In this document: positions 44,468 to 59,379 of the stretch, piece by piece
Numbering within the stretch: position 1 is the stretch's first letter
Layout of the letters: every line of letters begins with the position of its first letter
NCBI GenBank assembly: GCA_000827325.1
Contig: KN832875.1
Span: forward strand, 2,046,001-2,110,000
Source of the DNA: Oidiodendron maius Zn
Lineage: Eukaryota; Ascomycota; Leotiomycetes; Myxotrichaceae
DNA length: 64,000 nucleotides
Direction of reading: 5' to 3'
Notes under the pieces: generated by a model
Database searches by the model: none
What the model was told of the DNA's origin: nothing
The model's input: the letters and a program-made list of their open reading frames with translations, nothing else
Position numbers and translations under genes: made by a program

Positions 44468-46709
44468 GGCCCTGGCGTGGGATAAGCGGTGGCGGGGTTA
44501 GCTGCGGTTCCGGCGCTCAGGCAGACTGCACTGGTGGCAGCTAAACCATCAGCAATCGGTATTCTTGAGATACTCCCTCGAGATCTATCTATCTTGCCGT
44601 GTGTAATTGATAAGGAAGACACTTTGTTTCCTCTACTTGGGTCAAGATGCTTAAAATAGAGGTTGCTGTCAGGTTTCGGCCGGGAGATTTGGTTGCTGCC
44701 TGATCGCTGCCTGGGCGCAGGCCTTGGCACATGTCATAGTCACGTGCGGTGATCTTTTTAGAGGACCAAAACCATAGTGGTTTGCGTTTGCGCTAAAATG
44801 AGGGCCTAAGCCATCGTGTGTTCTGTGAGTTTTAAGGATGAGGATCTTTAATTTCTGTTAGCAGATCAGTGCAGGAAGCGACAACTGAAGGTGCGGGGTC
44901 TCAGTGCCTCCTTCGCTGCCTGTTGAGGTTGTTCAGTTCTGCCACCGCCATTCGACTGAGATCTATGACTAAAGAGGGAAGAAGAAAAGAAAAACCCTTC
45001 AATAGACAGAAGCTTAGTTGACCCTTTAGAAATAGCAGAAACGCAATGGGAAGTCCGGTAATGGGCAACTATTGGCGTATCTCATAAGTGGTTGAGTGGT
45101 TATCTACATTGAATCTAGTAGGAGTTGGAGGGAAACCAAGTTTTAAATACATCTTGGTTTGTAATAGTCAACAGAAAGCGTATTCTTAGTCATGTTCCTT
45201 AATTTCTAAAGGCCAACTTTTATTGATCTGTTGCATTGAAACGAGAAATCAAATAGGATGGTCGCATAGGGGTTGTGGTGAAGGATGGGTGTGGAATTAC
45301 AAAAGCCATTAATTGCCAACACAGCGAGCAGGCTGATGTTTTCAGCACCTCGTTAGCCGTTACAATATATAACCAAGTATAATTAAGTACTATATTTATA
45401 CTCCTTTACTTTAAGGTTTCTCTTTATTGTTATTAAGTTTAACTTACAGATATATTTATTATGATAAAATTTGTGTCGGTGATTCTGCTTCATGAAACTG
45501 CTCCCCCAGATACGAAAACCGCCTCCACCTCGACCTCTGCCTGCCTCCTTCAAACTCGTTCCTAACTTTCCACTACACGACTACTTGCCTGCAGGACGCC
45601 TAGTTCCACAATACCACGCGATAAATTACGATGGAAGATACATAAGGGGTATTGCTAACTGTTCTAGAAGGCTGGGAGGTGTTCTTCTTCTCATTACACA
45701 TCTCCGTGCACTATTATAGGTACTGTACGTATGGAGAACGCCTCGCTTTGATCATATAGCGGAGGGGTTTCCTAGGCTAGCCTAACTTGGTCAGTAATAC
45801 ATAGCTGGGCCGAGTTGTTCTGTAGATCCTCAGCTTTAGTTACTCTTCTTAATAAGCTATAGTTGGACTTACGGACCTAATTTATATAAAGGGGCTGTAC
45901 TTTAGTGCGAATCCCCTGAGGATGACAGAGCAGGCTATTTTCATAATACAGTAGTTGGAACGCACTTTAAATCGTAATTCGTCTAGATACGAGAACTTAG
46001 AATTGGAGCCTACAAACCTGTTCACTTCGAAAGCAATAGCCTCCTCTCCACCTTACATCTACCCAACGAGCTCTATTTGGTGAAAAAGCAGTGCGCAAGA
46101 CGGTGTAGCTTCCTCTTTCCTCTCAGTCACGGAACAAGGAAGGCGTGGCCTATAATGCTACTTATCCAAAGATCCTGCAGCCTAGAGGTAGCTAAGACTA
46201 ATCCTATATACTCGTACATAGCTACATCAAGTCTATATATACAAGGCACGAAGCATCACAGTTTAGTGTTTGTAGTGGGAAAGACGGAATTAAGATAACC
46301 AAGCAGCAAGCCGGAAAGGCAGGTTCCAGCACTGGTATATACCAGTACGAACTCCTCTGTTTACCTTCTTTCTGAACTACAAATTCATATTTTGCACTCT
46401 TTATTTTCTAGTTATTTTAATATTTACGAAAATTAATACTTATCAAAATAGCCAACCTCACGGTTATTGAATAATGTGTCATTCGCCCACTCCCAATAAT
46501 GCCTTGTGGATTGAGCCCAAAAAGTTGTATGCAAGCACCAAAAAATTATCATATTCACTTCAACCTCTTCAACCTTTTCAACAACACAATCCCTACCGTC
46601 ACACCTCATCACAAACATCGCCGCGTCGCCACATACTACAGCAACGCAATCAGTGAGTATATATCTATTATTGTCAGATTACTATTATTATAGCTAATCA
46701 AGGATAGAA
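44468..46709. other. AT-rich gap at the left edge of the accessory island
   Basis: These 2.24 kb hold the promoter of the zinc-cluster gene near 44468. From about 45100 the sequence becomes AT-rich and stop-dense (notably 45350-45480 and 46380-46460), as decayed repeats do. A 75-codon ORF at 45492 has no recognisable domain. The promoter of the RRM gene lies at the right end. Confidence 0.45.
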
Positions 46710-48337
46710 ATGGCTACTCACGAGAGTATCAGATACCTACAACAGCGCGCGTCTCAGAATGGCCTCGTCATCCATCTGGGCAGTCTAAATTTCAAGGCCA
46801 AGAAGACCGATGTTGAGAAGCTTTTAACAGAGCACGGATTCAATAAATGCACCTTCTTCTGGCCCGACGTGCCACCTAACCAGCCGGGCGAGCACAAGGG
46901 CTGGTGCCGTGTGCAATTCGCAGAGAAGAAGGTAGCGGAGCGCGCAAAGAGCGCCTTGCAGAACATGCCTCTGATGGGAAGGCCCATCAAGATCGGGTCG
47001 ATTGAGAACACTGCCGTAAGTACAGATCAAGGTACACGGTGGCCTCGTATAACTTTGTTGCTAATGTTACCAAGGCTGCCCCTCAAGCCCCGGCACAGCG
47101 AGCTCGAGCCCACCCCACGACAGCTCCCATCAAGCAACCCCCGCAGGATCCATCTACATCGTCCGAGTCTGTCGCTAGCATCCTTGTCCAAGAGACGACA
47201 TCCCTCGCAGCAAAAGCCTCTCTAGGGCCTTCTCCTTCTGCTCCGGCGGGAGCTGTCGCTTTTTCTTCTTCTTCTTCTTCTTCAGCGGTACAGGCGACCA
47301 ATAACCCGTCCTCTTCGGCGGCTCTTCGGTCCCTGCGCCTGACCGAATACCCCAAGTCGTGGTTTTATAACCCCGAGAACCCTGGCCTGGCTCAAGAATC
47401 GGTCATGTCCCGAGCGAAGCAGTTAGAGCGGGCTTACGAAAATGCCGGAGTCGTCGCTCGCCCGCTGGTTAAGGAGGCCCCGGGGGACGAGGCCGTGGCC
47501 CTTTCGCAGCAGTACCCCAGCCCTGCCCCGCACAACAGCAACTTCGCCACAAAACCATTCATTTGGGTGTACAAAGACGAGGGGAAGCATCGGGAGGCCA
47601 AAAGAATCGAGGTGGCGCGTTTGGCCGAGTTCGCGGCCGACGGCTGGGAGGAGTGGCAATATGCGGGTCGGCCCACCGAGCCAGGCACCGACAAGGATCC
47701 TCGACAGATCCTTAAAATCAACGATGTCTGGGAGACCGATGCTCCGTACAAGGATGCGGCTCACATGTTTGCCGCGGAAATCAAGACGGCAAGTCTTGCA
47801 GATGGCCTTAGCTGGCAGCCAGGCCAACTTCTTGGAGACAATCTCCAGGCGCGAGCCCCCATTTCTCATTCTCCGACTTTTATCACCCCTGCCGAATCGT
47901 CCAAAAATTTCCAGTCGGCAACCTCGTGCGGTCATCAACTCAAGTTTCCGCGCCCAGCAGGTGTTGGGGCGGGTTGGGGCGACCATGATATTTTCCGTGA
48001 GTGGCAGACCCATGGTCGCCAGGTGAAGAGGAGCATGGTGGAAAACAAGGAATGGCGCAAAATCTCCGAGAGCACCTATGAATTTGTTACCACCCGCGAC
48101 GCTCCGGTTGGAACCCGTGGAGTGACGATTCCTCCGGATGAGGCCGTGATGGGTATGGAGGCGGATAACCTGCGGGACGAAGAAGCACCAAAAAGCCTTT
48201 TCGAAGCACTGAATCCAAAACACCAGGCCAATCAAAGGGGCGGGCGTGGAGGAGGTTACAGTGGGAGGGGCCAGGGTGCGGCTGGAGCGGCATATGAGCA
48301 ACGGCGCCGGCAGACTGGAGAAGACCAGAATTGGTAG
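46710..48337 (+). CDS. RRM-domain protein with RGG tail (island gene A)
   Basis: Exons 46710-47015 and 47075-48337 join in phase to about 522 residues. Residues about 18-100 form an RNA-recognition motif with an RNP2-like LVIHLGSL and an RNP1-like KGWCRVQF. The middle is Ala/Ser/Pro-rich, including a serine run. From about residue 205 there is an unrecognised conserved-looking region (PFIWVYKDEGKHREAKRIEV, DIFREWQTHGRQVKRSMVENK). The C terminus is Arg/Gly-rich (GGRGGGYSGRG), typical of RNA binders. It is the first gene of an island whose genes share a 3' motif; GGCGCGAGCC plus a pyrimidine tract begins 36 nt after the stop. A decayed copy of its DIFREWQ region lies at about 56598-56680. Function is unknown beyond probable RNA binding. 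Confidence 0.75.
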
Positions 48338-48372
48338 GCCCTCATAGGCTACAGGTTGTTACTCAGAGTTCA

Positions 48373-48402
48373 GGCGCGAGCCTTCTTTTTTTCTCTTTTT
48401 TT
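48373..48402 (+). repeat. Island 3' signature, copy after gene A
   Basis: GGCGCGAGCC at 48373-48382 is followed by a pyrimidine tract to 48402, starting 36 nt after the gene A stop codon, in sense orientation. Confidence 0.75.
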
Positions 48403-48600
48403 GTCGGGTGGGAGCCCCCTTCTCTTTTCTTGTTCTTACTAGTCGTGATCCTTCTTTTCTATAGCCAGGTAGTTTGCAATATGAACTGCTTTGCTCGTGT
48501 TGGAATAGTTGCCTTGGATGCCTCAGTCACGACAACCACCACTACCACGAAGTAACACCTCAACCAGCCAGCAGTTCTGTGTAATGTGGCCTTGGATGTT

Positions 48601-48735
48601 ATGCCGACATCTAAAGTTCAAGACGCGGCCAAGTATTTGAAGATTGTGATTAAGCCGAAGAAATATAAGTTTCAAGTTCACGACCTGCAGTGGTTCGTCG
48701 CTCTTCACTCCTGCACCTTCATCACCAGCGTGTAA
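48601..48735 (+). pseudogene. Possible gene relic between island genes A and B
   Basis: An ATG-started stretch of 44 codons reads like protein (MPTSKVQDAAKYLKIVIKPK...) and ends at a perfect GTAAGT donor near 48732, but no next exon is visible in the 450 bp before the helicase. The rest of 48338-49190 has only the shared 3' motif of gene A (48373) and the helicase promoter. I treat it as a fragment. Confidence 0.25.
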
Positions 48736-49190
48736 GTCTAGATCCCGACTTTTGCATCATGACCAGCTACGCCTTAGGCCCTGCTAGGTAGCAAAAGCCA
48801 AAAACTAGAGGGCTGCGAATCTTCCTGGAAATGCTAAGCTCCTGCTCTTTGCCCATCTAACTCAGATGCAATGCTCCTTTTTTAAATCCAAATTACGTTC
48901 ATCAAGATTGATCTATGATGCACATATGCGTGCAGAGAGTAGTTAGGGATACAGAGAATGTGGAATATGCGTCAACTGTTGAAAAGCCACCTTTCTGGCG
49001 CTGGGTTGTTGGCGTGGAAAAGGTTGTGTGCGGTAGTAGATGTATTTATGTACCCCATTGGCAATTCACTTTCGGAGATACTAGTCTTTGTATTCCCACT
49101 AAAAGGTATGAGTATTCTAGATCTTGAGACAATTCACGGCAAAACACCACAACTACCTCAACCACCACCAACATCACCGCGACTACCATC

Positions 49191-51612
49191 ATGAGCGCAC
49201 TGAAGATGCAGTCTCTACAGCGCAACAAGACGACGGCTGTTCAGGCTATAGAGATTGAGGATAGAAAAGACCATCCTCTTCGCGATGGGCTGCACACGGT
49301 CAGATATTTTGAGCTTCTGAACGCACGACGCGCGCTTCCCGTTTCTAATAGCCGTCAAGACTTCCTGAACACCTATCATCAACAACAGGTAAGTAAATAT
49401 TATCTTTTGCTCTTTCTATCTGAGATATATTAATAGAGAATAACTTGATGTAAGCAGGTCATGGTCCTCTCGAGCGAGACGGGGTCGGGCAAATCGACCC
49501 AGATCCCACAGTTCGTCTTCTTTGACGAATACACCAGCTGTAAGATGGTGGCCTGTACACAGCCACGGAAATTAGCAGCAATCGAGGTGGCGCGCCGCGT
49601 TGCTTCAGAGATGGACGTAAAGCTAGGGGAAGAAGTTGGCTACAGTGTACGCTTCGACAATGCCACTAATGATAAAACGCGTCTCAAGTATATGACGGAT
49701 GGTCTGCTACTGCGAGAGGCTATGGAAGATGGTACCTTCTCAAAATATGTAAGTACTCTTCACGACCAAATGCTGCCAGACCTGCTCCTCATAAACAACA
49801 ACAGAGTTGTGTGATCGTCGACGAAGCCCACGAACGCACCTTGGCCACTGACATCCTGATGGCCTTACTCAAGCAAGCTGTCTCGCGCCGACCTGATTTG
49901 AAAGTCGTTATTATGTCGGCGACTATAGACGCCGACAAGTTTCGAGACTACTTCGGTGGTGCGTCGCTGTTCAATGTGGTCGGCCGGATATTTCCAGTTC
50001 AAATACTATATCTTTCGGAGGCGACGCCTCATTATTTGTCATGCGCTATGCGCGTGGTTAAACACATCCACAAGACCATGGCAGCTGGTGACATTCTTCT
50101 TTTCCTTCTGACAGTTGACGAGATCGAGCAGACTTGCTCGATGCTGAGAAAAACTACAGAAGGCCTAGAGGTATTGCCTCTATATGCCTCGCTCCCGCGG
50201 GCCGAGCAAGGTCGAGTCTTTGACAAGTCTTCCTCACGGAAGTGTGTTGTTACAACCAACATTGCCGAGACAAGCTTGACGATCGACGGTATGGTCTACG
50301 TTATAGGTAAGATATCTGAATAGCTGGAGATCCTGAGCCACTTGGAATCTGTGTAACTGATAGTTAAGGACAGACACCGGTTTGTCCAAGCAAGCCGGGT
50401 ACAACCCGCGCGCAGGCTTAAAGACTCTGCAAACCGCGCCCATCTCCAAGGCTTCTGCCCGGCAGCGAGCTGGCCGAGCTGGCCGCACTCAGCCGGGCAT
50501 GTGTTTCCGTCTCTACACAGAAGACACACACGACAATGCCTTTCTTCAGAGCACCCCTCCTGCGATACTCAAGTCTGAGATTAGCTCAGAGATCTTGTTG
50601 CTTAAGGCCGCCGGTTATAACGCCGTGGGCAGGTTCGATTTCATCGAACCGCCACATCCAGAGCCCTACTTGCGTGGTCTCCGGGCGCTGAGTAATATGT
50701 AAGTGTTGTTACCCTGTTGGCTACCTATAAGCATCGAAGTTTTGATTCAAACTAATCTTAGGGTACAGGGGCTACATCAATACGGAGGGATCCATAACGC
50801 CCAGCGGTCGAATGGCGTCAAAGCTGCCAGTGCATCCAGTCTGGTATAATGCCATTCTCAAGGCGCACGAACTCAACTGCAGCAACGAGATGGTCAGCCT
50901 TGCCGCGCTCGCCAGCACGCAGCAGTCTATCTTTGTTCGCCCATATGGCCCTCGATATGCTGCGGACGCGATAAGGCCATGGTTCTTCCATTGGAACTCG
51001 GACCACCTCAGCCAGCTTAATGCACTGCACGCATATGTCCGCACAAAGCTCCAAGGGATCATTGACATGGAGCAGTGGTGCTTTGACGCTTTCCTCAGTG
51101 GCCGCGTGCTGGAGGAAGTCCTTCTTATCCGCCAGCAGCTTCTAGCTCTTGCCCGTGGGTTCCTAGTTGGAGGCCCAAGGTCGACATCATTTGGTGACGA
51201 ATCCTACGACACCAACATCCGCAAGGCTCTGGCACAGAGCTTCTTCCATCAATCCGCTTTCTACACTGGCAAGGGTGATGACCTTTATGTGACTGTGCAC
51301 GACAATCACCCGGCGGGCATTCACCCTGAAAGTGCCTTGGTCAAATCCAACTATGAGTGGGTCATCTACGACACCTTTTTCTCCTCAGGCAAGCAATACA
51401 TACAGACTGTGACAGCTGTTGACCCAACCTGGCTCATTGTACGGTCTTCCGATTCTTCTAATCTTATTATATCTACTAACACTATTTAGGATCTCGAGTA
51501 CTTTCAAGACGACAGATTATCAAAGAAGCGAGGTGCTGGAGGCTTCAGACAACCTGAAGTGAAAGCCTCCCTCGACGAAGCTCGGGCCAGGGCAGCACGG
51601 GCCTCTCCATGA
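49191..51612 (+). CDS. DEAH-box RNA helicase, Prp43/DHX15-like (island gene B)
   Basis: Exons 49191-49388, 49458-49748, 49805-50306, 50374-50698, 50769-51438 and 51490-51612 join in phase to 702 residues. All core DExH motifs are visible: ETGSGKST (Walker A, residues 75-80), TQPRKLAA, VDEAHER (DEAH 169-172), MSATI, TTNIAETSLTI and QRAGRAGRTQPG, followed by the winged-helix/ratchet and OB-fold parts typical of the Prp43 branch (spliceosome disassembly and ribosome biogenesis). It is somewhat shorter than canonical Prp43 and its motifs carry substitutions (VFFDEYTSCKMVACTQPR), so it may be an accessory paralogue rather than the housekeeping enzyme. Three spaced copies of the island 3' motif follow the stop codon. 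Confidence 0.85.
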
Positions 51613-51633
51613 GGTATATTCTTGTCGTTAGAA

Positions 51634-51705
51634 GTTCGAGCCATCCTTTTATTTTCTGCTTCTGGCGCGAGCCATCTTTTTCTTTTCTGCTTCTGGCGCG
51701 GGCGA
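51634..51705 (+). repeat. Island 3' signature after gene B, as a 31-bp imperfect tandem repeat
   Basis: A degenerate copy (GTTCGAGCC, about 51634), an exact GGCGCGAGCC at 51664-51673 and GGCGCGGGCG at 51695-51704 are spaced 31 bp, each followed by a T-rich tract and TTCTGCTTCT. The array starts 22 nt after the helicase stop codon. Confidence 0.75.
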
Positions 51706-51732
51706 TATTTTCCCCTTCCGCCTCCTTTTCTA

Positions 51733-51785
51733 TTTGGGAGTTGATAGGTCTATAGTCATAAAGACTTACAAAATTTGACCTCTCG
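51733..51785 (+). repeat. Longer 3' block shared with the PD-(D/E)XK-like gene (copy 1)
   Basis: The stretch beginning TTTGGGAGTTGATAGGTCTA is nearly repeated on the minus strand at 57015-56964, where it also lies just past the GGCGCGAGCC motif of an island gene. Confidence 0.75.
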
Positions 51786-52270
51786 CATTGCACTAGTGTC
51801 TTAGCTGCATTCCGCGCATTAGCTCTAGCTATGTAATAACCATGTGCTATAACACTGAGTAACTTTATTTACGTCTTTTATACTTTCTTTCTCTTATCTT
51901 TACTTCGTAGCATGTGGGTTTTTATCCCGCTTCAGTAGGGTTTTACCATGTGAACATTATGTATTATTAGAGGTTCCGCGTGCTATATTATATGTAAAGA
52001 TAATTAATATAATTATAATTATATAATTCTTTTAAGTATTATATTTTAAACTCTTATATATTTTACTTATAGAAACTCAAGCATACTAGAAATTAATAGG
52101 GAAAGGAGAATGGGAACGAGGTGGGATTATATAAGCGAGGGTAATGAGTGGCGGCCAGTCAGGTGTGTTGCTTTTTCCCCCATCAGGCTAGTAACCTGCC
52201 TCTTTGGGTTGACTGGCTGTATCTAGTTTAGCGCAGTTTATCTGCTCAAGCTGTAAGTTACTGTAACGTA

Positions 52271-52472
52271 GTCCACCAGTGAGCTGGTCATATCAGTAAG
52301 CCGGTCAGCTAATTTTACCGCAAAAATCACGATTTTAAACTGTAATAACGTAGCCATTTTTAACTTTAGATTGAAATATTATGAAATGGCTACGTTATTA
52401 CAGTTTAAAATCGTGATTTTTGCGGTAAAATTAGCTGACCGGCTTACTGATATGACCAGCTCACTGGTGGAC
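52271..52472. mobile_element. Foldback MITE (89-bp inverted arms), TA-flanked
   Basis: A 202-bp element with two inverted arms of 89 bp that I read as perfect complements, separated by a 24-bp loop. The termini are GTCCACCAGTGAGC...GCTCACTGGTGGAC, flanked on both sides by TA, as in Tc1/mariner-type MITEs. It has no coding capacity. Its right TA is also the left TA of the pogo-like element. Confidence 0.9.
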
Positions 52473-52474
52473 TA

Positions 52475-54551
52475 GAAGGTCCCACCACCAAGCGAGAATC
52501 ACCACTATACAAGAAAATTTTTTACCCTACGACCTCCTCATATATTTCGTTGCATTCCTCCAAGACCTTTAAGCTATCTGCAAATTCTTTCGTAGTAAAA
52601 GTGCAATAGATATCCCATCACCTGAAACCCGGGCTTAGAGAGCAATTCAGTCGTATAAGTTAGGACATTTTAAGTCGTTGAAAGCTGCTGCCCTCGCTAA
52701 TGATGCTGCTGTATCCACTACTTACTACCGCACGTCAGGCCGGCCTTCCAACTCCTAGAAGTCCCAAAAACAGCTTGCCTTATATGTTAATGAGGAGAAA
52801 GTCTTAATTGATTGGATTTTTCAACTTCATCGCCTTGGTGTACCCACTACTCCGTCTCGATTGCAGGATATAGCAAATCACGTACGTCAAGGTCGGGCAA
52901 AGACAGACCTCCCTTCTCTAGGGCCGAATTGGGTGATATGCTTTGTCGCTCGGTATCTAGAGATAAAGAGTGTAATGGGTTCTAGGCTAGATAGAGACCG
53001 GTGGGATAATGTTACAAGGGAATCAATGGAGGGGTGGTTTAATCTCGTTGAGAAGGTCAAAGAGGATTTCCGAATCCTTGATAGTAACGTCTACAATATA
53101 GATGAAAAAGGCTGTGTCTTAGGCGTTTCAGAGAAAGCCCGGATCCTTATTCCGGCAAGTTCTAAAGTTAAATTCTTGAAGCAGCCAGGAAATCGAGAAT
53201 TTGTTACCGTTATAGAGTATATTTGTAGCGCTGGCAATATTATCCCGCTATTCATAATATGGAAGGCTTAGACCTATCGAGACAACTGGATTCCTCTAGA
53301 CTTGAGCTCTTCTATAGAAGGAACAGCCTTCGCAACTAGCCTGAATAGGTATACCGATCACAAGCTAGGATTCGAGTAGGTGAGCAAAGTCTTCCACCCT
53401 ATAACAGTAGAGTCCTCTCGAGGCCGTACTAGGCTCCTCCTTATGGACAGGCATTCAAGCCACTTGACAAGTCAATTTCTAGGATTTTGTTATGACTACA
53501 ATATTTTACCTCTCTGTCTGCCCCCTTATACAACATATATGCTACAGCTGTTGGATATAGGATGCTTTGCTCCTCTTGTATACTATTACTGAGCTGAAGT
53601 TGATGAAGCGAGTCACTACAGCCTGTATAGGGTCTCCAAGTTCGACTTTCTTCGATTCTATTCTGTTGTACGGTAGAAGGCTTTTATAGCCAAAAATATC
53701 AGCTCTGTATTCCGCAAGTCTGGGTTCGTGCCTCTTGACCTATTGGTTATCCTGGACAAGTTGATTCCTTAAGCCGAACAACCTGAATTATCTACTTAAT
53801 AGGCGTAAAGCCCAGCACGCCCCACGACTGCTTTAAGCTCCCTCTAGACTCCTCGAGATTATACAAGGCTCCTTGAATATTGCTATCGTTTAGAACGGTA
53901 TGTTGAGAGCCAAGGGTATAAGAGCAGTCCTTCTAGAGCACTCTGTAACAAGGTGTGCTATACTGTAATTCGGAAAAGCACGGAGTTTACAATTCTTATA
54001 AAGGAAAATACGGGACTAACGAAAGTTATAGTAGCTAAAGCTGCAAGAAAGAGTTCTAAGGGAAAAGTTCTCTCGACTGGACGCGTTCTGACCCTATTTC
54101 AGGTTCATGAACTAAGAAGGGAGGAAGAAAAGCAGGGCAAAAAGCACCAGAGGGAGGATGATGAAACTAAGGTCGACAAGACCGCAAAAAAAGCCCTAAA
54201 GGCGTATACAGTAGACATGATAGAAAATGGACAGGGAAATGGTTCTTTAAGCACTGTCTCGAGCCTAGAAGCGACTGTTTCCAAGGTCAACGGTGCGGAT
54301 ACGCCCCAAACGGGTGCATTAGATAACTCAGTCTATACTGGTGGGATTCCTATCAAGGCGTATAAAGCGCTACCCAAATGCTTAGGATGTAATTCTCTAG
54401 GTTATAATTATCGAAGTTGCCCTAATAAGTGATAGCAGTCAATTAAAAAATACTTAACTATATAATTCCGATCTGATACGTGTTAGAGAAATGGAGTTTT
54501 TTAATTTTCGTTCTCGGATGGTGGTGATTCTCGCTTGGTGGTGGGACCTTC
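52475..54551 (+). mobile_element. Pogo/Fot1-type (Tc1/mariner superfamily) DNA transposon, degraded
   Basis: The element is bounded by terminal inverted repeats starting GAAGGTCCCACCACCAAG, at least 30 bp long (52475 on; complement ending 54551), and flanked by TA (52473-52474 and 54552-54553). Inside is one transposase whose frame is cut by many stops: a helix-turn-helix/CENP-B-like N-terminal region, then the DDE part with VYNIDEKG (first Asp), LLLMDRHSSHLT (second Asp) and LPPYTTYMLQLLDI, then a charged tail with a CXXC-type end (KCLGCNSLGYNYRSC). The size, about 2.08 kb, is normal for Fot1/Tan1 elements. Confidence 0.9.
52861..54432 (+). pseudogene. Inactivated pogo/Fot1 transposase
   Basis: The open segments 52861-53271, 53380-53592 and 53953-54432 are pieces of one transposase in the same sense. 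Interrupting codons are largely TAG or TAA at places where Gln or Trp would be expected, as C-to-T change in CpA context produces (repeat-induced point mutation). It cannot make a full-length protein, although the terminal repeats are intact enough to be mobilised by an active relative. Confidence 0.85.
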
Positions 54552-54680
54552 TACGTTAACTTAGCCGTCATTCTTTACATAATCAACTACTCTTTGAACA
54601 TAATATATATATACCACTGCACTTACCCAGTCTCTTTGCTGTCAACCTTTTTCCTTTCTCACTACAACAACAAAATCATC

Positions 54681-55979
54681 ATGGCATCCTCATCCTCAAA
54701 AGCTCCGGGTGTGCCACCCAAAACTCCAAAGAGAAGCTCGAGCAAGAGAACGCGAAAGCAGCTCGAGACTGATTACGCCCTTCTGCGTTTCCAAGACCAG
54801 GAGACGCGAAAGAAAATCAAGCCATCACATAGCTTCGACGCCAATTACTGGTTGTCGGCGGCAGCCGCCAGCGAAGTTTCAGCTAAAATACACGAGGTAG
54901 AAACAAAGCTTGCTATCCAGAACTGGAAGGAAGAGGATGGCAGTGAGAATGAGGACACGATGGAATGGTGGGCCACACCAGAAGCCCATCACCTTATTGA
55001 GAAGCGCAAGGCCGCTGTCTACGAGAAGAAGCTATATACGCAGCAAGCAGAAAAGATCCAGCGAGGCGGGCCGATGAGACGTGCGTTCCAAGCTATGTTT
55101 ACGACTAGCCAGATCGGACTTGCGGCCGAGAAGGTCGGGGTTGGCAAGCGCTCTAGAACCCAGCAGTCAAAATTTAGGCAGAACATAATCCAGGCATATG
55201 GCGCTGCTATTACTATCCCGAGGAAGCCCAAGGTTATCGCAAGGCTCTACGATAACGCCACTGGTAGCAAGCTCGTGCCAAGCCACGTTACAGCCGCCCA
55301 TATGGTTCATTACTCGCTAGGACCAGATGTATTGATTGCCATCTTCGGAATCAATGTCGAAGGAGAGCTTGATACGCCATACAATGGTCTCCTACTCCCG
55401 TCAGGTGTCGAAACGGCCATGGATGATGGAGCTATTGCGATTGTTCCAGATCTCCCCGATGCACCCTCCACTGAAGAGGTGGCTACTTGGGAGAGTACGG
55501 AGCCTAAGGAGTATAAATGGAGGATTATTGACGATGAGGCAGATGTGCTGGACGAGCCATTTATAGACGGTGTTGATATGACTATCCGGGACCTTGGCGG
55601 CAAGCGACTCTTCTTCAGGAACGACATGCGGCCAAGAGCGCGTTACCTCTACTTCTTGTTCGTCGTGGCACAGCTCAAACTAGCTTGGAGACGCGAGTAT
55701 CGCAATGATCCAGCCAATGTCCTGAAGAAGCAGCTAGGAAAGGGATTCTGGGCCACCAAGGGCCGCTACCTGAAACGCGCTTTCCTTCTCGCAATAGCAG
55801 AGGAGATTGGGCATGACACCGAGATTTGTGACAATATTCCAATGGAGCCTGGAGACGACAATGAGCCTGACGAGACAGGTGTCATCGGAATTGCGAAACA
55901 GCTGCGATTTCAGAAGAGACGTTATGAGGACAGGTATGAGGAAGACGAGGACGAGGACGAGGACGAGGGGGACAACTAG
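54681..55979 (+). CDS. HNH-nuclease-like protein of the fungal HNH_2 type (island gene C)
   Basis: An intronless gene of 432 codons from the ATG at 54681; the upstream open frame has no other ATG. The N terminus is Ser/Lys-rich. The region 198-260 has the pattern of the large fungal HNH_2 family: a TAAHMVHYSLG strand and helix with His207, an IFG...NGLLLPSG segment with Asn235, then DDGAIAIVPD. The third metal-site histidine is not obvious (ETAMDDG at that place), so catalysis is doubtful. The C-terminal half is helical and ends in an Asp/Glu run. The shared GGCGCGAGCC motif begins 65 nt after the stop (56044). Such nucleases are lineage-expanded in fungi with little known function. Confidence 0.65.
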   Translation: MASSSSKAPGVPPKTPKRSSSKRTRKQLETDYALLRFQDQETRKKIKPSHSFDANYWLSAAAASEVSAKIHEVETKLAIQNWKEEDGSENEDTMEWWATPEAHHLIEKRKAAVYEKKLYTQQAEKIQRGGPMRRAFQAMFTTSQIGLAAEKVGVGKRSRTQQSKFRQNIIQAYGAAITIPRKPKVIARLYDNATGSKLVPSHVTAAHMVHYSLGPDVLIAIFGINVEGELDTPYNGLLLPSGVETAMDDGAIAIVPDLPDAPSTEEVATWESTEPKEYKWRIIDDEADVLDEPFIDGVDMTIRDLGGKRLFFRNDMRPRARYLYFLFVVAQLKLAWRREYRNDPANVLKKQLGKGFWATKGRYLKRAFLLAIAEEIGHDTEICDNIPMEPGDDNEPDETGVIGIAKQLRFQKRRYEDRYEEDEDEDEDEGDN

Positions 55980-56043
55980 ACATGCCTTGAGATTTAGATT
56001 TCTTTAGGCTTTTGAAATTGTCTTGTCAGAGATTTCTTGTAAA

Positions 56044-56072
56044 GGCGCGAGCCTTCCTTTTTTTCTCTTTGC
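56044..56072 (+). repeat. Island 3' signature, copy after gene C
   Basis: GGCGCGAGCC at 56044-56053 followed by a pyrimidine tract, nearly the same as the copy after gene A. Confidence 0.75.
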
Positions 56073-56084
56073 TTTTTAGATTAA

Positions 56085-56335
56085 GCGTTACCACTTCATT
56101 TCCATTCTGAGAATTTCCAGCCGTAGCCTTTACTACCTCCTTGGTATAGTGATCTAGTCTCCCCGCAGTCGAGAAGTACAATCGTCGTGACCACTTTACC
56201 GGAATTTCTAGCTGCACCTTCTACCGCCTTCTTATTAATGGCGATCTAGTCTCCCTACTTGTCGAGAAGCAGTGCCATTACATCTTTACCTTTCCTAGAG
56301 TTTCTAGCCCCGCACTTTAACACCTATGTAGTCAC
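56085..56335 (+). repeat. Imperfect tandem repeat of about 93 bp (2.5 units)
   Basis: Units start near 56088, 56183 and 56275. They share TTTCYAGC....CCTTYTAC and GATCTAGTCTCCCY....GTCGAGAAG. The third unit is truncated. The repeat has no coding capacity and is diverged, so it is an old duplication. Confidence 0.65.
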
Positions 56336-56597
56336 CTTTCCCCCTGAGCTTAGTAGAGCTAAAAAAAAATTTAAAAAAAAACATTCGGATATCACGATTG
56401 AGTAGTCATCTTAAGTGCCGTTACACCTAACCCATCGACGCGGAAACTCTGCCGTTAAACTGGCTGCAGCAGATATCCCTCCCATCGTGTCTACGATAGA
56501 GTTCAATGTCAGCCAAAGTTAGCCAAAGTTCGACGGCAGATGATTAAAGTGACATGGGACATGTTTCTGTCTGTAATGACAAGGGCGGCGACGCCAT

Positions 56598-56680
56598 GGG
56601 GCTACTATGACATTTTCCGTGAGTGGCAGATCTATGGTCGCTAGGTGAAGAGGAGCATGGTAGAAAACAAGGAATGGTGC
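56598..56680 (+). pseudogene. Decayed fragment of island gene A
   Basis: This stretch closely repeats gene A around 47980-48062 (the segment encoding GDHDIFREWQTHGRQVKRSMVENKEW), with transitions such as CCC to TCT and CAG to TAG, which puts a stop in frame. No other part of gene A is recognisable around it. It shows that gene A sequence was duplicated within the island and then mutated in a RIP-like way. Confidence 0.75.
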
Positions 56681-56963
56681 TGCAAAGGCCAGGCAGCAAT
56701 ATATAATGTATTAAGAGCACTGAATCAACTAAAGAACTAGGGTTTTGTGCAGACGCGCGATGTATGTTCTTGACCCGATCAGGATCAAGGATATAAGAGG
56801 TAGTTTGCCTAGGCAGAGGATGGAAGTTTTTTCCACCAAGATAAAACCTATACATCTAGTGATCGGCCAAATTTAGCAAATGGGTGTTCTACAACTCCAA
56901 GCAAGAGGACACTATACGCAAGGAGGAATCACAACGGACAGCATGGAAGAAGCTTATGCCAAA

Positions 56964-57015
56964 CGAGATGTCAAAATTTAAAGACCTTATGACTCTAGAC
57001 CTATCAACTCCCAAA
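56964..57015 (-). repeat. Longer 3' block shared with the helicase gene (copy 2)
   Basis: Read on the minus strand it begins TTTGGGAGTTGATAGGTCTA and runs to TTTTGACATCTCG, matching 51733-51785 after the helicase with few differences and the same order relative to the GGCGCGAGCC motifs. Confidence 0.75.
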
Positions 57016-57058
57016 CCAGAAAGGAGGGCAGGAGGAGAAGGAGGAGAAAATAAAAGGT

Positions 57059-57106
57059 GGCTCGCGCCACAAAGGGAAAAAAAAAAAAAGAAATTTGGCT
57101 CGCGCC
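57059..57106 (-). repeat. Island 3' signature after gene D, two copies
   Basis: On the minus strand GGCGCGAGCC lies at 57106-57097 and again at 57068-57059, separated by a T-rich tract. The first begins 17 nt after the gene D stop codon. Confidence 0.75.
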
Positions 57107-57122
57107 ATTCTGAAGCATTTGT

Positions 57123-58094
57123 TTAACGTGGCCAGACATCTGCTGCATAAGATTGCAGTTCTGGAATACTGAAGACGATATCCCCTTCTCCTGGACCTGG
57201 ATCTCTAAGGAACAGGAGCCTAAACTCCAGTACTAATGCACCTCCATTGACAGTATATGATGCTGCGTTTCCAGGGTCTCCAGTGTTATCGTAGGTAATT
57301 GTAATTGTTTGTTGTAACACTGGCTCCATTGCTGCAGACCATCGGGTTGTAGCTGCTCCTTGTCGAGGTGCTCGTTCTTCTTCCTCCCACTTCTCCAACA
57401 TAATTGAACGTTCCCCATGATTAAATTTAGCAAGAATCACAATCTTGACCTCATGATTTGATGTAGAGAACCACCATCTCATATCGTTTCTTAGCTCTGG
57501 CAATGATTCAGAATCCCCAGCTTCAATAACTAGAGTAGGCCAATCTTCATGTCCTCTGCGATCTGGTTTTGGCCCACCAGACGAATCACCTTCACCACTA
57601 TTACCACCAGGGTGTCCTTCTCTTGCTTGTAATGTAGTAGCACCTATCGGTGTCCAATGTCCTTGTAAATTCATTGGGACAAGTTTATATAAATACTGCT
57701 GATAAAGCTGTAGATGGAGGAGTTCGTGGGTTCTAGTCGGGATTGTAATAACAAGGAGTCTTGAGTCTGCATGATAGCGACGGAACCGAATCTTACGTCG
57801 ACGGATCTCTCTCTCTTTCTTAATTATAGCAAAATCTTGATAAGAGACATCTAAAAATAATTAGTATAATTGTAAGTAAAGATATATAGAGCTAAGCTAA
57901 TATATACCTGTAACAATCAGAATATCTCCAGGAACATGATTAATGTGCTCAAAGAGCGCTTCAACAGTTGTGAATTGAATAGTTGGGGGCTTGGTGTCCT
58001 GCAACGCCATCGAAGCAGATGAAGCTGGGGTTGATGCGGATTTAAACATTGGGGCCTCAGAAGCTGATGTAGGATGGTACAGAGATGATGCCAT
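57123..58094 (-). CDS. Putative PD-(D/E)XK nuclease-like fungal protein (island gene D)
   Basis: Exons 58094-57908 and 57850-57123 join in phase to 304 residues; the ATG at 58094 is the first in frame. The core at about 166-205 (WPTLVIEAG..., SES..LR.D..WW, VKIVILAKF) follows a pattern seen in a widely expanded fungal family that I associate with restriction-endonuclease-like (Uma2-like) folds. The assignment is from memory and the catalytic residues cannot be fixed from sequence alone. The N-terminal part is Ser-rich, then basic (KKEREIRRRKIRFRR). No membrane segment or signal peptide is seen. It points toward gene C, tail to tail, and carries two copies of the island 3' motif directly after its stop. 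Confidence 0.6.
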
Positions 58095-58242
58095 GACTAA
58101 TGACAGAGAGGGGTGAGACTTGTTTGGTGGCTGTTTGGAGGCTGTTTGGTTGGTCAAGTGTAAAAGGTAAGCTGCAGATATGACGCCACCAGACGAGACG
58201 CAGAAATACTGCTTATTAAGCAGACTTAATACCTCACCACCT

Positions 58243-58460
58243 CACCAGGGGGTGTCGGAATTGATGGCACAGGCGCATACCCAATTTCTTCTTCTATATT
58301 ACTATAACGCGCTCTCCCACCAGATTCTACTACTAATTTATATCGATTAGGCATCTTAGATATACGCGCACGAACTTTTCCATTTTAATGTTGCTCCATT
58401 GCTAATGTGGTATTTCAGCTAAAGTGGTGCCTGTGCCATCAATTCTGACACCCCCTGGTG
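58243..58460. mobile_element. MITE with 11-bp target duplication (Mutator-like size class)
   Basis: A 218-bp non-coding element with terminal inverted repeats of about 34 bp (two mismatches) starting CACCAGGGGGTGTC. It is flanked by a direct 11-bp duplication CCTCACCACCT at 58232-58242 and 58461-58471. A duplication of 9-11 bp is typical of Mutator-like elements. Confidence 0.85.
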
Positions 58461-58471
58461 CCTCACCACCT

Positions 58472-59379
58472 TCTGGTGCTTCCTTGCAAGTAAAGTCTTA
58501 GTATAAATTAATTAATTGACGTATAGAAAGAAGAGAGGTAGTCTCTGCCCTTACAGGTCCTACATATGCAGCTGCTGCAACTACGTAGTGTAGGTGTCAT
58601 GGCATATTTGATGCTGCTGGCCTATGGGGAAAAGGACGTATCAAGAAGTTGGGGTCATTGCCCGGGAGGTTCTATCCCCAGGAGACAGTCACGAAACAAG
58701 CTTCGTTCACGAGCTATCGAGTTTTCAACCTATGGCAACGGTCGAACTACCTCAGCCATACGTTTTCCAACCCACCAGTTCGGTCGATTTCTGTGAGCTT
58801 TACGATCTTAACTTCCACAAAGCAATAGAGACAATACAGCCGGTTTCCGTATGAGCTTAAAGACTCTGCCAGTTTTTGCTAACAAAGTGGCCCAACTTTT
58901 ACGTCCAACGCACTGCGCCAAATACCAAGATAGCGGTATTGATCTATTCGCATCCTATGGTGAGCTCATATCCTAAGACTGCAGTATTTGTCATCAAATA
59001 ATGTGTCCAGGAGTAATGGCTGTAATAGCAGTGGGCAGTAGTTGGAAAAGGATAATTAGCCACCCTCAACGCAAGTGGTGAGCTTCATAGATCTGACGAA
59101 GTTGACCGGGAGAATCTAGAACTTTACCCGTCTAGGATCAGAACACGCATGAAGCTTAAATGATTTCGTGTATTTGAAGAACAATTTAGCATATATAATA
59201 GAGACCAAAAACGAGTCAAGTCAATTGACAATAAATATATCGAATCATAGAAGATTTTATATACATGAGATACGTATATACAAATAATTTTGATTGTATG
59301 ACCCCTTTCAAATGGTCCCAACCAGGTCAAGGTTCTCGTCCAGTGCCCGCGGCCAGTATTGCGGAGGTGATGTTCCGAT
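58472..59379. other. Intergenic region at the right edge of the island
   Basis: A 77-codon ORF at 58624-58854 reads somewhat like a protein C terminus (PMATVELPQPYVFQPTSSVD) but has no start or domain support. The rest is AT-rich 3' flank of the cellobiohydrolase gene. Confidence 0.4.

Follow-up and report, generated by a model that had tools for sequence, protein, structure and literature searches.

Why should four unrelated genes of a fungus end in the same short stretch of DNA? The question is raised by an island at approximately 46.6 to 58.2 kb of a 64,000-nt stretch of the Oidiodendron maius Zn genome (contig KN832875.1, positions 2,046,001 to 2,110,000; C6:2046001-2110000 in our contig numbering, and hereafter the window), which contains genes for an RRM protein, a DEAH helicase, an HNH protein and a PD-(D/E)XK protein. 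The original prediction placed a common decamer with a T-rich tract 36, 22, 65 and 17 nt past the stop codons of these genes. All four copies were found, each in sense orientation, including that of the gene on the minus strand, and the distances of 36, 65 and 17 nt were confirmed. For the DEAH gene, the site at 22 nt (near 51634) proved to be a half copy lacking the left stem arm, the full copy lying 52 nt past the stop codon. The observation is real and larger than first stated. The decamer forms the central part of a structured RNA-like element, here called the tag, in which a 4-bp hairpin with a GNRA tetraloop (N-GGC-GNRA-GCC-N') is followed by a short spacer (e.g., TTC or ATC) and a T-rich T/C tract, often in tandem. 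The hairpin and its loop class are conserved, in sense orientation, common to unrelated genes, nearly restricted, within the genome, to these families and repeated in tandem with varied periods. We suggest, with a probability of about 0.5, that the tag is an RNA-level cis-element carried at their 3' ends by the genes of a dispersed accessory set (the RRM protein, the Prp43-like DEAH helicase, several HNH proteins and the PD-(D/E)XK protein) and that it is bound by one trans factor.

In the window, the RRM gene (plus strand, 46710 to 48337; exons 46710 to 47015 and 47075 to 48337 in our own splice reading) encodes an RRM_1 domain (E value of 6.6e-6) and a long C-terminal part of unknown fold. 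Its 3' tag at 48373 to 48400 is followed by a second, diverged tag, GGT-GGGA-GCC, at 48407 to 48430, both on the plus strand. The helicase gene (plus strand, 49191 to 51612) was read by us as six exons encoding 702 amino acids, with the full tag at 51664 to 51687 (plus) between decayed half copies, one near 51634 and one near 51692. The HNH_2-type gene (plus strand, 54681 to 55979; 432 amino acids) scored only marginally as HNH_2, at 21.5 bits against a cut-off of 21, and has its tag at 56044 to 56067 (plus). The PD-(D/E)XK gene lies on the minus strand (57123 to 58094; exons 58094 to 57908 and 57850 to 57123), with tags on the same strand at 57097 to 57106 and 57059 to 57068. The original prediction had noticed no further copies in the 64 kb, and exact decamers were indeed confined to the island; inside it, the second PD tag, the diverged RRM copy and an exact copy in the RRM coding sequence at 47848 had been missed.

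The bare decamer says little about the genome as a whole, since it was not enriched there: 59 exact copies were counted in 45.9 Mb, or about 0.08 expected per 64 kb, against 71 for the reversed control. Six exact decamers occur in the window, all inside 47848 to 57106, and with one mismatch allowed the window count was weakly unusual (7 against 3.1 expected, a number reached by 4 of 100 shuffles). When the tract was included (GGCGNRAGCCNYYYYTTTYYYYYY, at most one mismatch), the genome yielded 23 places, compared with 3 for its reverse, and 22 of the 23 were described gene loci or remnants. In neither the one-mismatch nor the loop-blind search was the motif scattered through the genome without relation to stop codons, the outcome that the original prediction had named as its refutation. 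The sole one-mismatch tag-like place outside the described loci, GGAGAGAGCC followed by a tract, was at C2:296161-296184. At up to two mismatches there were 44 places against 22 for the reversed control, and because of that control total most of the additional places look like chance.

A search that left the loop free (GGCNNNNGCC plus tract) returned 14 places against 2 in the reversed control. Eleven of the 14 had GNRA loops, and all 11 belonged to the tagged families: ten stood at the ends of genes and one in the coding sequence of the RRM paralogue on contig C1; the loop letters of the two final rows were taken from the GGCGNRAGCCNYYYYTTTYYYYYY search. The other three (C1:1310152, C7:336497 and C23:158211) had no GNRA loop and were outside the tagged families. 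A similar scan of the window plus six loci found GNRA loops at 18 of 22 stem-plus-tract places; of the four others, two were genuine tags read out of register and two lay elsewhere in the window. With a covariance model run over the whole window under default filters, all matches up to an E value of 1 were inside 47239 to 57112, and nothing better than 0.46 was found in 1 to 46000 with the filters off. A relaxed-stem scan of seven stretches, six of which had been picked for holding tags, gave 27 matches, whereas 30 shuffles averaged 0.13. One relaxed-stem match outside the island, at 45671, was taken as chance, the covariance model giving it no support.

Searches for known elements were negative. 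Rfam gave no match at the tags in window 46000 to 58500, its ten microRNA matches being below the gathering score and located at palindromes. Helitrons are defined by a 3' hairpin followed by a CTRR end; by eye, the tag has a hairpin and then a T/C tract, without CTRR. Viral and prokaryote contigs scanned with the pattern returned 23 and 79 stretches, respectively, the prokaryote titles being spread across many phyla, and nothing was inferred from them.

Across the genome the tag was found in sense at ten gene copies in five loci. The stop-to-tag distances were 17, 20, 23, 23, 36, 37, 52, 65, 137 and 546 nt, so that in nine of the ten the tag lies 17 to 137 nt past the stop codon; the longest distance belongs to the HNH gene on C1 and runs through a helicase piece. 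A second cluster at C1:3.4513-3.4612 Mb contains tagged helicase and RRM paralogues plus another HNH gene. The C1 helicase has an unbroken spliced frame, 69% amino acid identity to the window helicase and the same intron positions, and the ratio of nonsynonymous to synonymous substitution rates (dN/dS) for the pair was 0.19, indicating purifying selection. The C1 RRM gene has an open frame provided that an intron resembling the one in its window counterpart is spliced out, and dN/dS for the RRM pair was 0.32 in exon 1 and 0.77 in exon 2. The C1 HNH protein showed no detectable similarity to that of the window and was weakly similar to the HNH protein on C11 (E value of 6e-6). By eye, a frame at L061 9503-9775, within the C1 cluster, resembles a Ty1/copia RNase H piece.

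Tagged PD copies were located on C7 and at C1:1.84 Mb, with dN/dS values among the PD copies of 0.38 to 0.58. The C7 copy may be damaged, since in our reading its corresponding start codon is out of frame, and the C1:1.84 Mb copy was 100% identical, over 79% of the query, to the annotated Oidiodendron maius Zn protein OIDMADRAFT_99569 (P0128). Downstream of the latter, in L064 and L084 (C1:1838200-1845200), we noted by eye a decayed HNH-like gene without a tag and then frames of patatin and P-loop (NLR-like) appearance. A 111-bp PD fragment at C2:1396756-1396866, 91% identical and without a tag, is set within other sequence. A tagged HNH gene was found on C11 and an HNH 3' remnant on C3 (L066), and the tagged genes on C7 and C11 stand alone. 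Untagged relatives also exist, namely PD relatives at C2:1046k, C1:313k and C2:2356k and several HNH relatives on C3 and C1. None of the 44 places at up to two mismatches coincided with them, and of two relatives read directly, L084 had no tag and L089 had a weak AGCGAAAGCC alone. A cluster of relatives of the C1 HNH gene, one of them 75% identical over the C terminus, lies at C3:1.80-1.91 Mb and has no matching tag places.

The homology between unrelated members extends beyond the tag itself. The RRM 3' cassette of the window (48372 to 48466, plus strand) matched the tail of the C11 HNH gene (L065:3052-3149) with 85% identity over 99 columns (E value of 1e-21), the genes being unrelated and on different contigs. 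Twenty-six nucleotides past the stop codon of the C1 HNH gene begins a 5'-truncated helicase piece that has 90% identity over 172 columns to the helicase of the window and leads into a tag array. In the window, the PD tail continues into a helicase 3' flank, of which a remnant lies at 56825 to 57016 on the minus strand, and a remnant of an RRM gene lies at 56591 to 56680 on the plus strand. Helicase homology runs past the tag: the two intact genes share a further 51 bp, and the C1 flank shares 193 bp with the 56825 to 57016 remnant. The three PD copies share one unit with sharp ends (57045 to 58177, minus strand, in the window; otherwise on C7 and at C1:1.84 Mb, unrelated loci), which starts about 80 nt ahead of the start codon, ends in the tag tract and retains an intron in each copy. 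A search for target-site duplications at these three copies gave nothing convincing, the longest common words being 6, 6 and 8 nt and the 8-mer being tag sequence; a half tag, CGCGAGCC, is present at the 5' border of the C1:1.84 Mb copy. Common 5' sequence between gene families was likewise not convincing, with weak matches of 17 to 25 nt. The proposal of a mobile or co-amplified set is upheld in part: dispersed, unrelated genes share a 3' cassette and coding parts stand in front of each other's 3' pieces, with any movement of the genes hypothetical.

The form of the tag variation was examined in 27 copies from predicted 3' untranslated regions (UTRs), aligned from the window and loci L061 to L066. 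Six loop types were present (GCGA 9, GCAA 7, GAAA 6, GGGA 2, GGAA 2 and GUAA 1), and hairpin and loop class were retained while spacers and tracts varied. In the 24 distinct rows, the outer stem pair was UA in 10, AU in 8, GC in 2 and unpaired in 4; the second pair was GC in 23 and AU in 1, the third GC in 23 with one mismatch, and the loop-closing pair CG in 22 and UG in 2. The covariation score of 0.292 was reached by none of 500 shuffles and was at most 0.111 once the partners were slid. Tandem arrays had a period of 25 nt with 5.8 copies in L061 and of 52 nt with 3.9 copies in L062. The main tags of all four window genes have GCGA loops and the RRM and helicase tags on C1 have GAAA, while the array after the C1 HNH gene has mostly GCAA; in these two loci there is a hint that loop type goes partly with the locus rather than with the gene family. 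The first tag of the PD copy at C1:1.84 Mb is TAGC-GUAA-GCUA, against TGGC-GCGA-GCCA in its two sisters. Four of the 44 private substitutions of this copy (approximately 1.1 kb) fall within the 10-nt core, and all four preserve stem and loop class (G-C to A-U, GCGA to GUAA).

An RNA-level signal is favored because of the GNRA excess in the loop-blind searches and the covarying stem pairs. The earlier alternative of an RNA-processing or recombination signal is in this way tipped toward RNA, any role in either process being hypothetical. A binding site would fit, since the GNRA class is kept with N and R free, the orientation is sense and the element has been amplified repeatedly. On this proposal the tag would act in RNA as the binding site of one trans factor, and tagged transcripts would be handled together in stability, 3'-end formation, localization or export. 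Members would have gained the tag through recombination or copying of 3' cassettes among themselves.

The candidate trans factor is the RRM protein of the set. It is the best candidate reader because its own gene is tagged, because its gene alone has matches in the coding sequence and because its RRM is nearest to those of nucleolin, PUF60 and RBM39. The coding-sequence matches comprise a tag-like hairpin, GGC-GGGA-GCT followed by a T/C tract, at 47245 to 47254 (plus strand; covariance model E value of 0.009), and the exact decamer at 47848 to 47857 (plus strand; E value of 0.0015), which is followed by C/T-rich sequence; the C1 paralogue gave matches at 2.5e-5 and 0.001. The coding sequences of the other set members gave no covariance-model match below an E value of 0.5. 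For the RRM pair, the first coding-sequence tag was aligned at the protein level only and not in the DNA alignment. The RRM similarities are weak (nucleolin, E value of 6e-5; PUF60; RBM39, 5e-4; among 15 solved sequences with E values up to 0.01). RRM1 of RBM39 recognizes RNA stem loops, and RBM39 autoregulates (PMC10477243).

Several observations weigh against this proposal. The 27 UTR copies were gathered mostly by patterns that demand GNRA, and decayed copies (51634, 51692 and weak repeats near L065:3120-3170) had been excluded before the count, making the 27 of 27 GNRA loops a biased figure; the argument is carried by the loop-blind scans and not by this count. A looser three-mismatch pattern showed no genome-wide excess (512 against 505 reversed) and was useless as a test. 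Two of the five pair measures were unremarkable, two-sided-change pairs being matched by 24 of 500 shuffles and further pair types by 415 of 500, and the tag copies are related by descent, with the AU/UA switch tracking gene families (RRM and HNH versus DEAH and PD). Folding energies were ordinary in eight of nine tags (z of 0.0 to -1.5, with -3.7 in the other), and the predicted fold of one array unit and the centroid of one C1 RRM tag were different structures. Each of the four core changes in the C1:1.84 Mb PD copy is a C:G-to-T:A transition; two affect a CpG and the other two have CpA/TpG context, a pattern that repeat-induced point mutation (RIP) or CpG decay could produce. CpA was also the commonest C-to-T context in this copy (7 of 13), which overall is not strongly RIP-like (19 C:G-to-T:A changes, 16 reverse and 9 transversions). 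The RRM coding-sequence hairpins could reflect the protein, A-R-A, instead. They stand in the frame G|GCG|NRA|GC(C/T), encoding A-[R/K/G/Q]-A; the middle residue among aligned RRM relatives is R, K, G or Q, which fits NRA codons, and on back-translation P0005 and P0007 seem to depart from the tag at the second coding site. Finally, the C-terminal part of the RRM protein gave an AlphaFold pLDDT (predicted local distance difference test) of 38 and no usable model.

Two other kinds of signal, acting in retro-mobility or in DNA recombination, were considered and are less supported than an RNA-level element. The hairpin plus tail could be recognized at the 3' end by a reverse transcriptase that mobilizes the gene transcripts in trans, as in pairs of long and short interspersed elements (LINEs and SINEs), which are reported to share a 3' stem-loop (PMC6510757). 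The three PD copies at unrelated loci, roughly transcript sized from about 80 nt before the start to the tag tract, would be so explained, as would the 5'-truncated pieces that keep the tag (the helicase piece in L061 and the HNH remnant in L066) and the tandem tail repeats. Yet neither the PD copies nor the two helicase genes have lost their introns, target-site duplications at the PD copies were not convincing, the helicase homology continues past the tag by 51 and 193 bp, and no tagged reverse-transcriptase element was seen at 22 of the 23 places (C2:296161 apart) in an assembly that may be incomplete. We regard this origin as unlikely.

The repeat might instead be a DNA site at which genes were joined by break repair, serving either as a recombination hotspot or as the target of an HNH or PD-(D/E)XK enzyme encoded by the set. 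Junctions at or near tags, such as that of the window PD tail with the helicase flank and the half tag CGCGAGCC at the PD border, and the repeat arrays would agree with this. Unoccupied targets would also be expected, but at up to one mismatch no place was found away from tagged genes or remnants (C2:296161 apart); moreover, the variation stays for the most part within the limits of a GNRA hairpin in RNA, the orientation is sense throughout and the window HNH protein is marginal to HNH_2, making a DNA target improbable. Least probable in our estimate is passive spread, in which a functionless minisatellite from one ancestral 3' UTR was copied to its neighbors in a recombining cluster. Most copies are indeed in two clusters, RRM and helicase gene debris is present in the island and tandem repeat number varies; against this, hairpin and loop class persist while spacers and tracts change, the single genes on C7 and C11 retain the tag, and the places, C2:296161 apart, all belong to gene ends, remnants or the coding sequences of RRM genes.

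What the set might do is a matter of conjecture, its nuclease-like and helicase content bringing to mind a selfish or genome-conflict role, as the original prediction had proposed. A Prp43-like helicase in such a setting is not far-fetched, because conditional PRP43 alleles of Cryptococcus neoformans led to loss of small interfering RNAs and increased transposition (PMC6643885). Going beyond an RNA-level element as such, we tentatively imagine the tag as a private RNA password of a selfish or conflict network, though we would sooner doubt this than rely on it. Its RRM protein, perhaps together with the Prp43-like helicase, would recognize GNRA-hairpin/U-tract tags on member mRNAs and in its own coding sequence, genes would join by acquiring the 3' cassette, and two versions may have diverged in parallel (main RRM and helicase tags with GCGA on C6 and GAAA on C1).

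The proteins themselves were assigned as follows. The spliced DEAH protein aligned to a Prp43-type chain over residues 7 to 669, its best solved chains were Prp43, and it has the helicase core plus OB domain of Prp43-like DEAH proteins; Pfam run on exon pieces identified OB_NTP_bind, and HA2_C scored 21.1 bits against a cut-off of 21.3. Among the 120 matches listed, it was mostly 50 to 66% identical to often multicopy Hypocreales proteins and 46 to 49% identical to proteins named Prp43. The PD protein has a restriction-endonuclease-like fold, with 8 to 13% identity to 1wdj, 6okh, 3ot2 and 9y1l, and no Foldseek E value was below 0.001. No relatives of the RRM or HNH proteins were found in viral contigs, and six proteins or pieces gave no match in PADLOC.

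The surroundings of the island are ordinary. Among ten reading frames scanned, polyketide synthase domains, a MutS homologue and a tyrosyl-tRNA synthetase were recognized on one side and a GH7 cellulase on the other. Within the island, a DNA transposon was identified by eye at 52477 to 54562, with inverted ends GGTCCCACCACCAAGCGAGAATCACCAC and broken pogo/DDE-like frames, approximately 119 nt upstream of the HNH ATG; two pieces of it that were scanned had no Pfam match. It is adjoined by a near-perfect palindrome (a foldback element) at 52270 to 52473, which gave sub-gathering Rfam microRNA matches. By eye, a further inverted repeat is located directly upstream of the PD unit, at 58230 to 58475.

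If an RNA-level tag read by one factor is correct, it would amount to a self-contained posttranscriptional address system within a fungal accessory gene set. The tag would bring together nuclease-like and helicase genes that could not be grouped by sequence similarity, and it is a computable handle for finding further members in other fungi. With a single protein and a single 24-nt RNA, the coordination of dispersed accessory genes could also be put to a direct test. A literature search by titles and abstract starts, with most subscription journals outside its coverage, found no paper on such a tag.

Among known systems, LINE/SINE 3' tails resemble the tags in placing a common 3' hairpin and tandem tail on otherwise unrelated units (PMC6510757); here, in contrast, the units are protein-coding genes that keep introns, with no convincing target duplications at the PD copies and no tagged reverse-transcriptase element seen at 22 of the 23 places. 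The window helicase shares the helicase core and OB domain with Prp43/DHX15 but forms a divergent clade of probably accessory nature. The PD protein shares the DUF820/Uma2-type restriction-endonuclease fold and belongs to a fungal family at 8 to 13% identity to the four structures named above. The tag as we read it is also comparable to RNA regulons, of which the histone stem-loop, a structured 3' UTR element, and SLBP are an example. There, too, a small hairpin stands in sense at the 3' ends of unrelated genes and structure counts over strict sequence, and in the present set several unrelated genes carry the same structured element in sense at their 3' ends, with its structure conserved (GNRA loops at 11 of 14 and 18 of 22 places and a covarying outer pair, subject to shared descent). 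The tags differ from such regulons in being confined to a dispersed accessory set that includes its own helicase and RNA-binding protein, the latter being the candidate binder.

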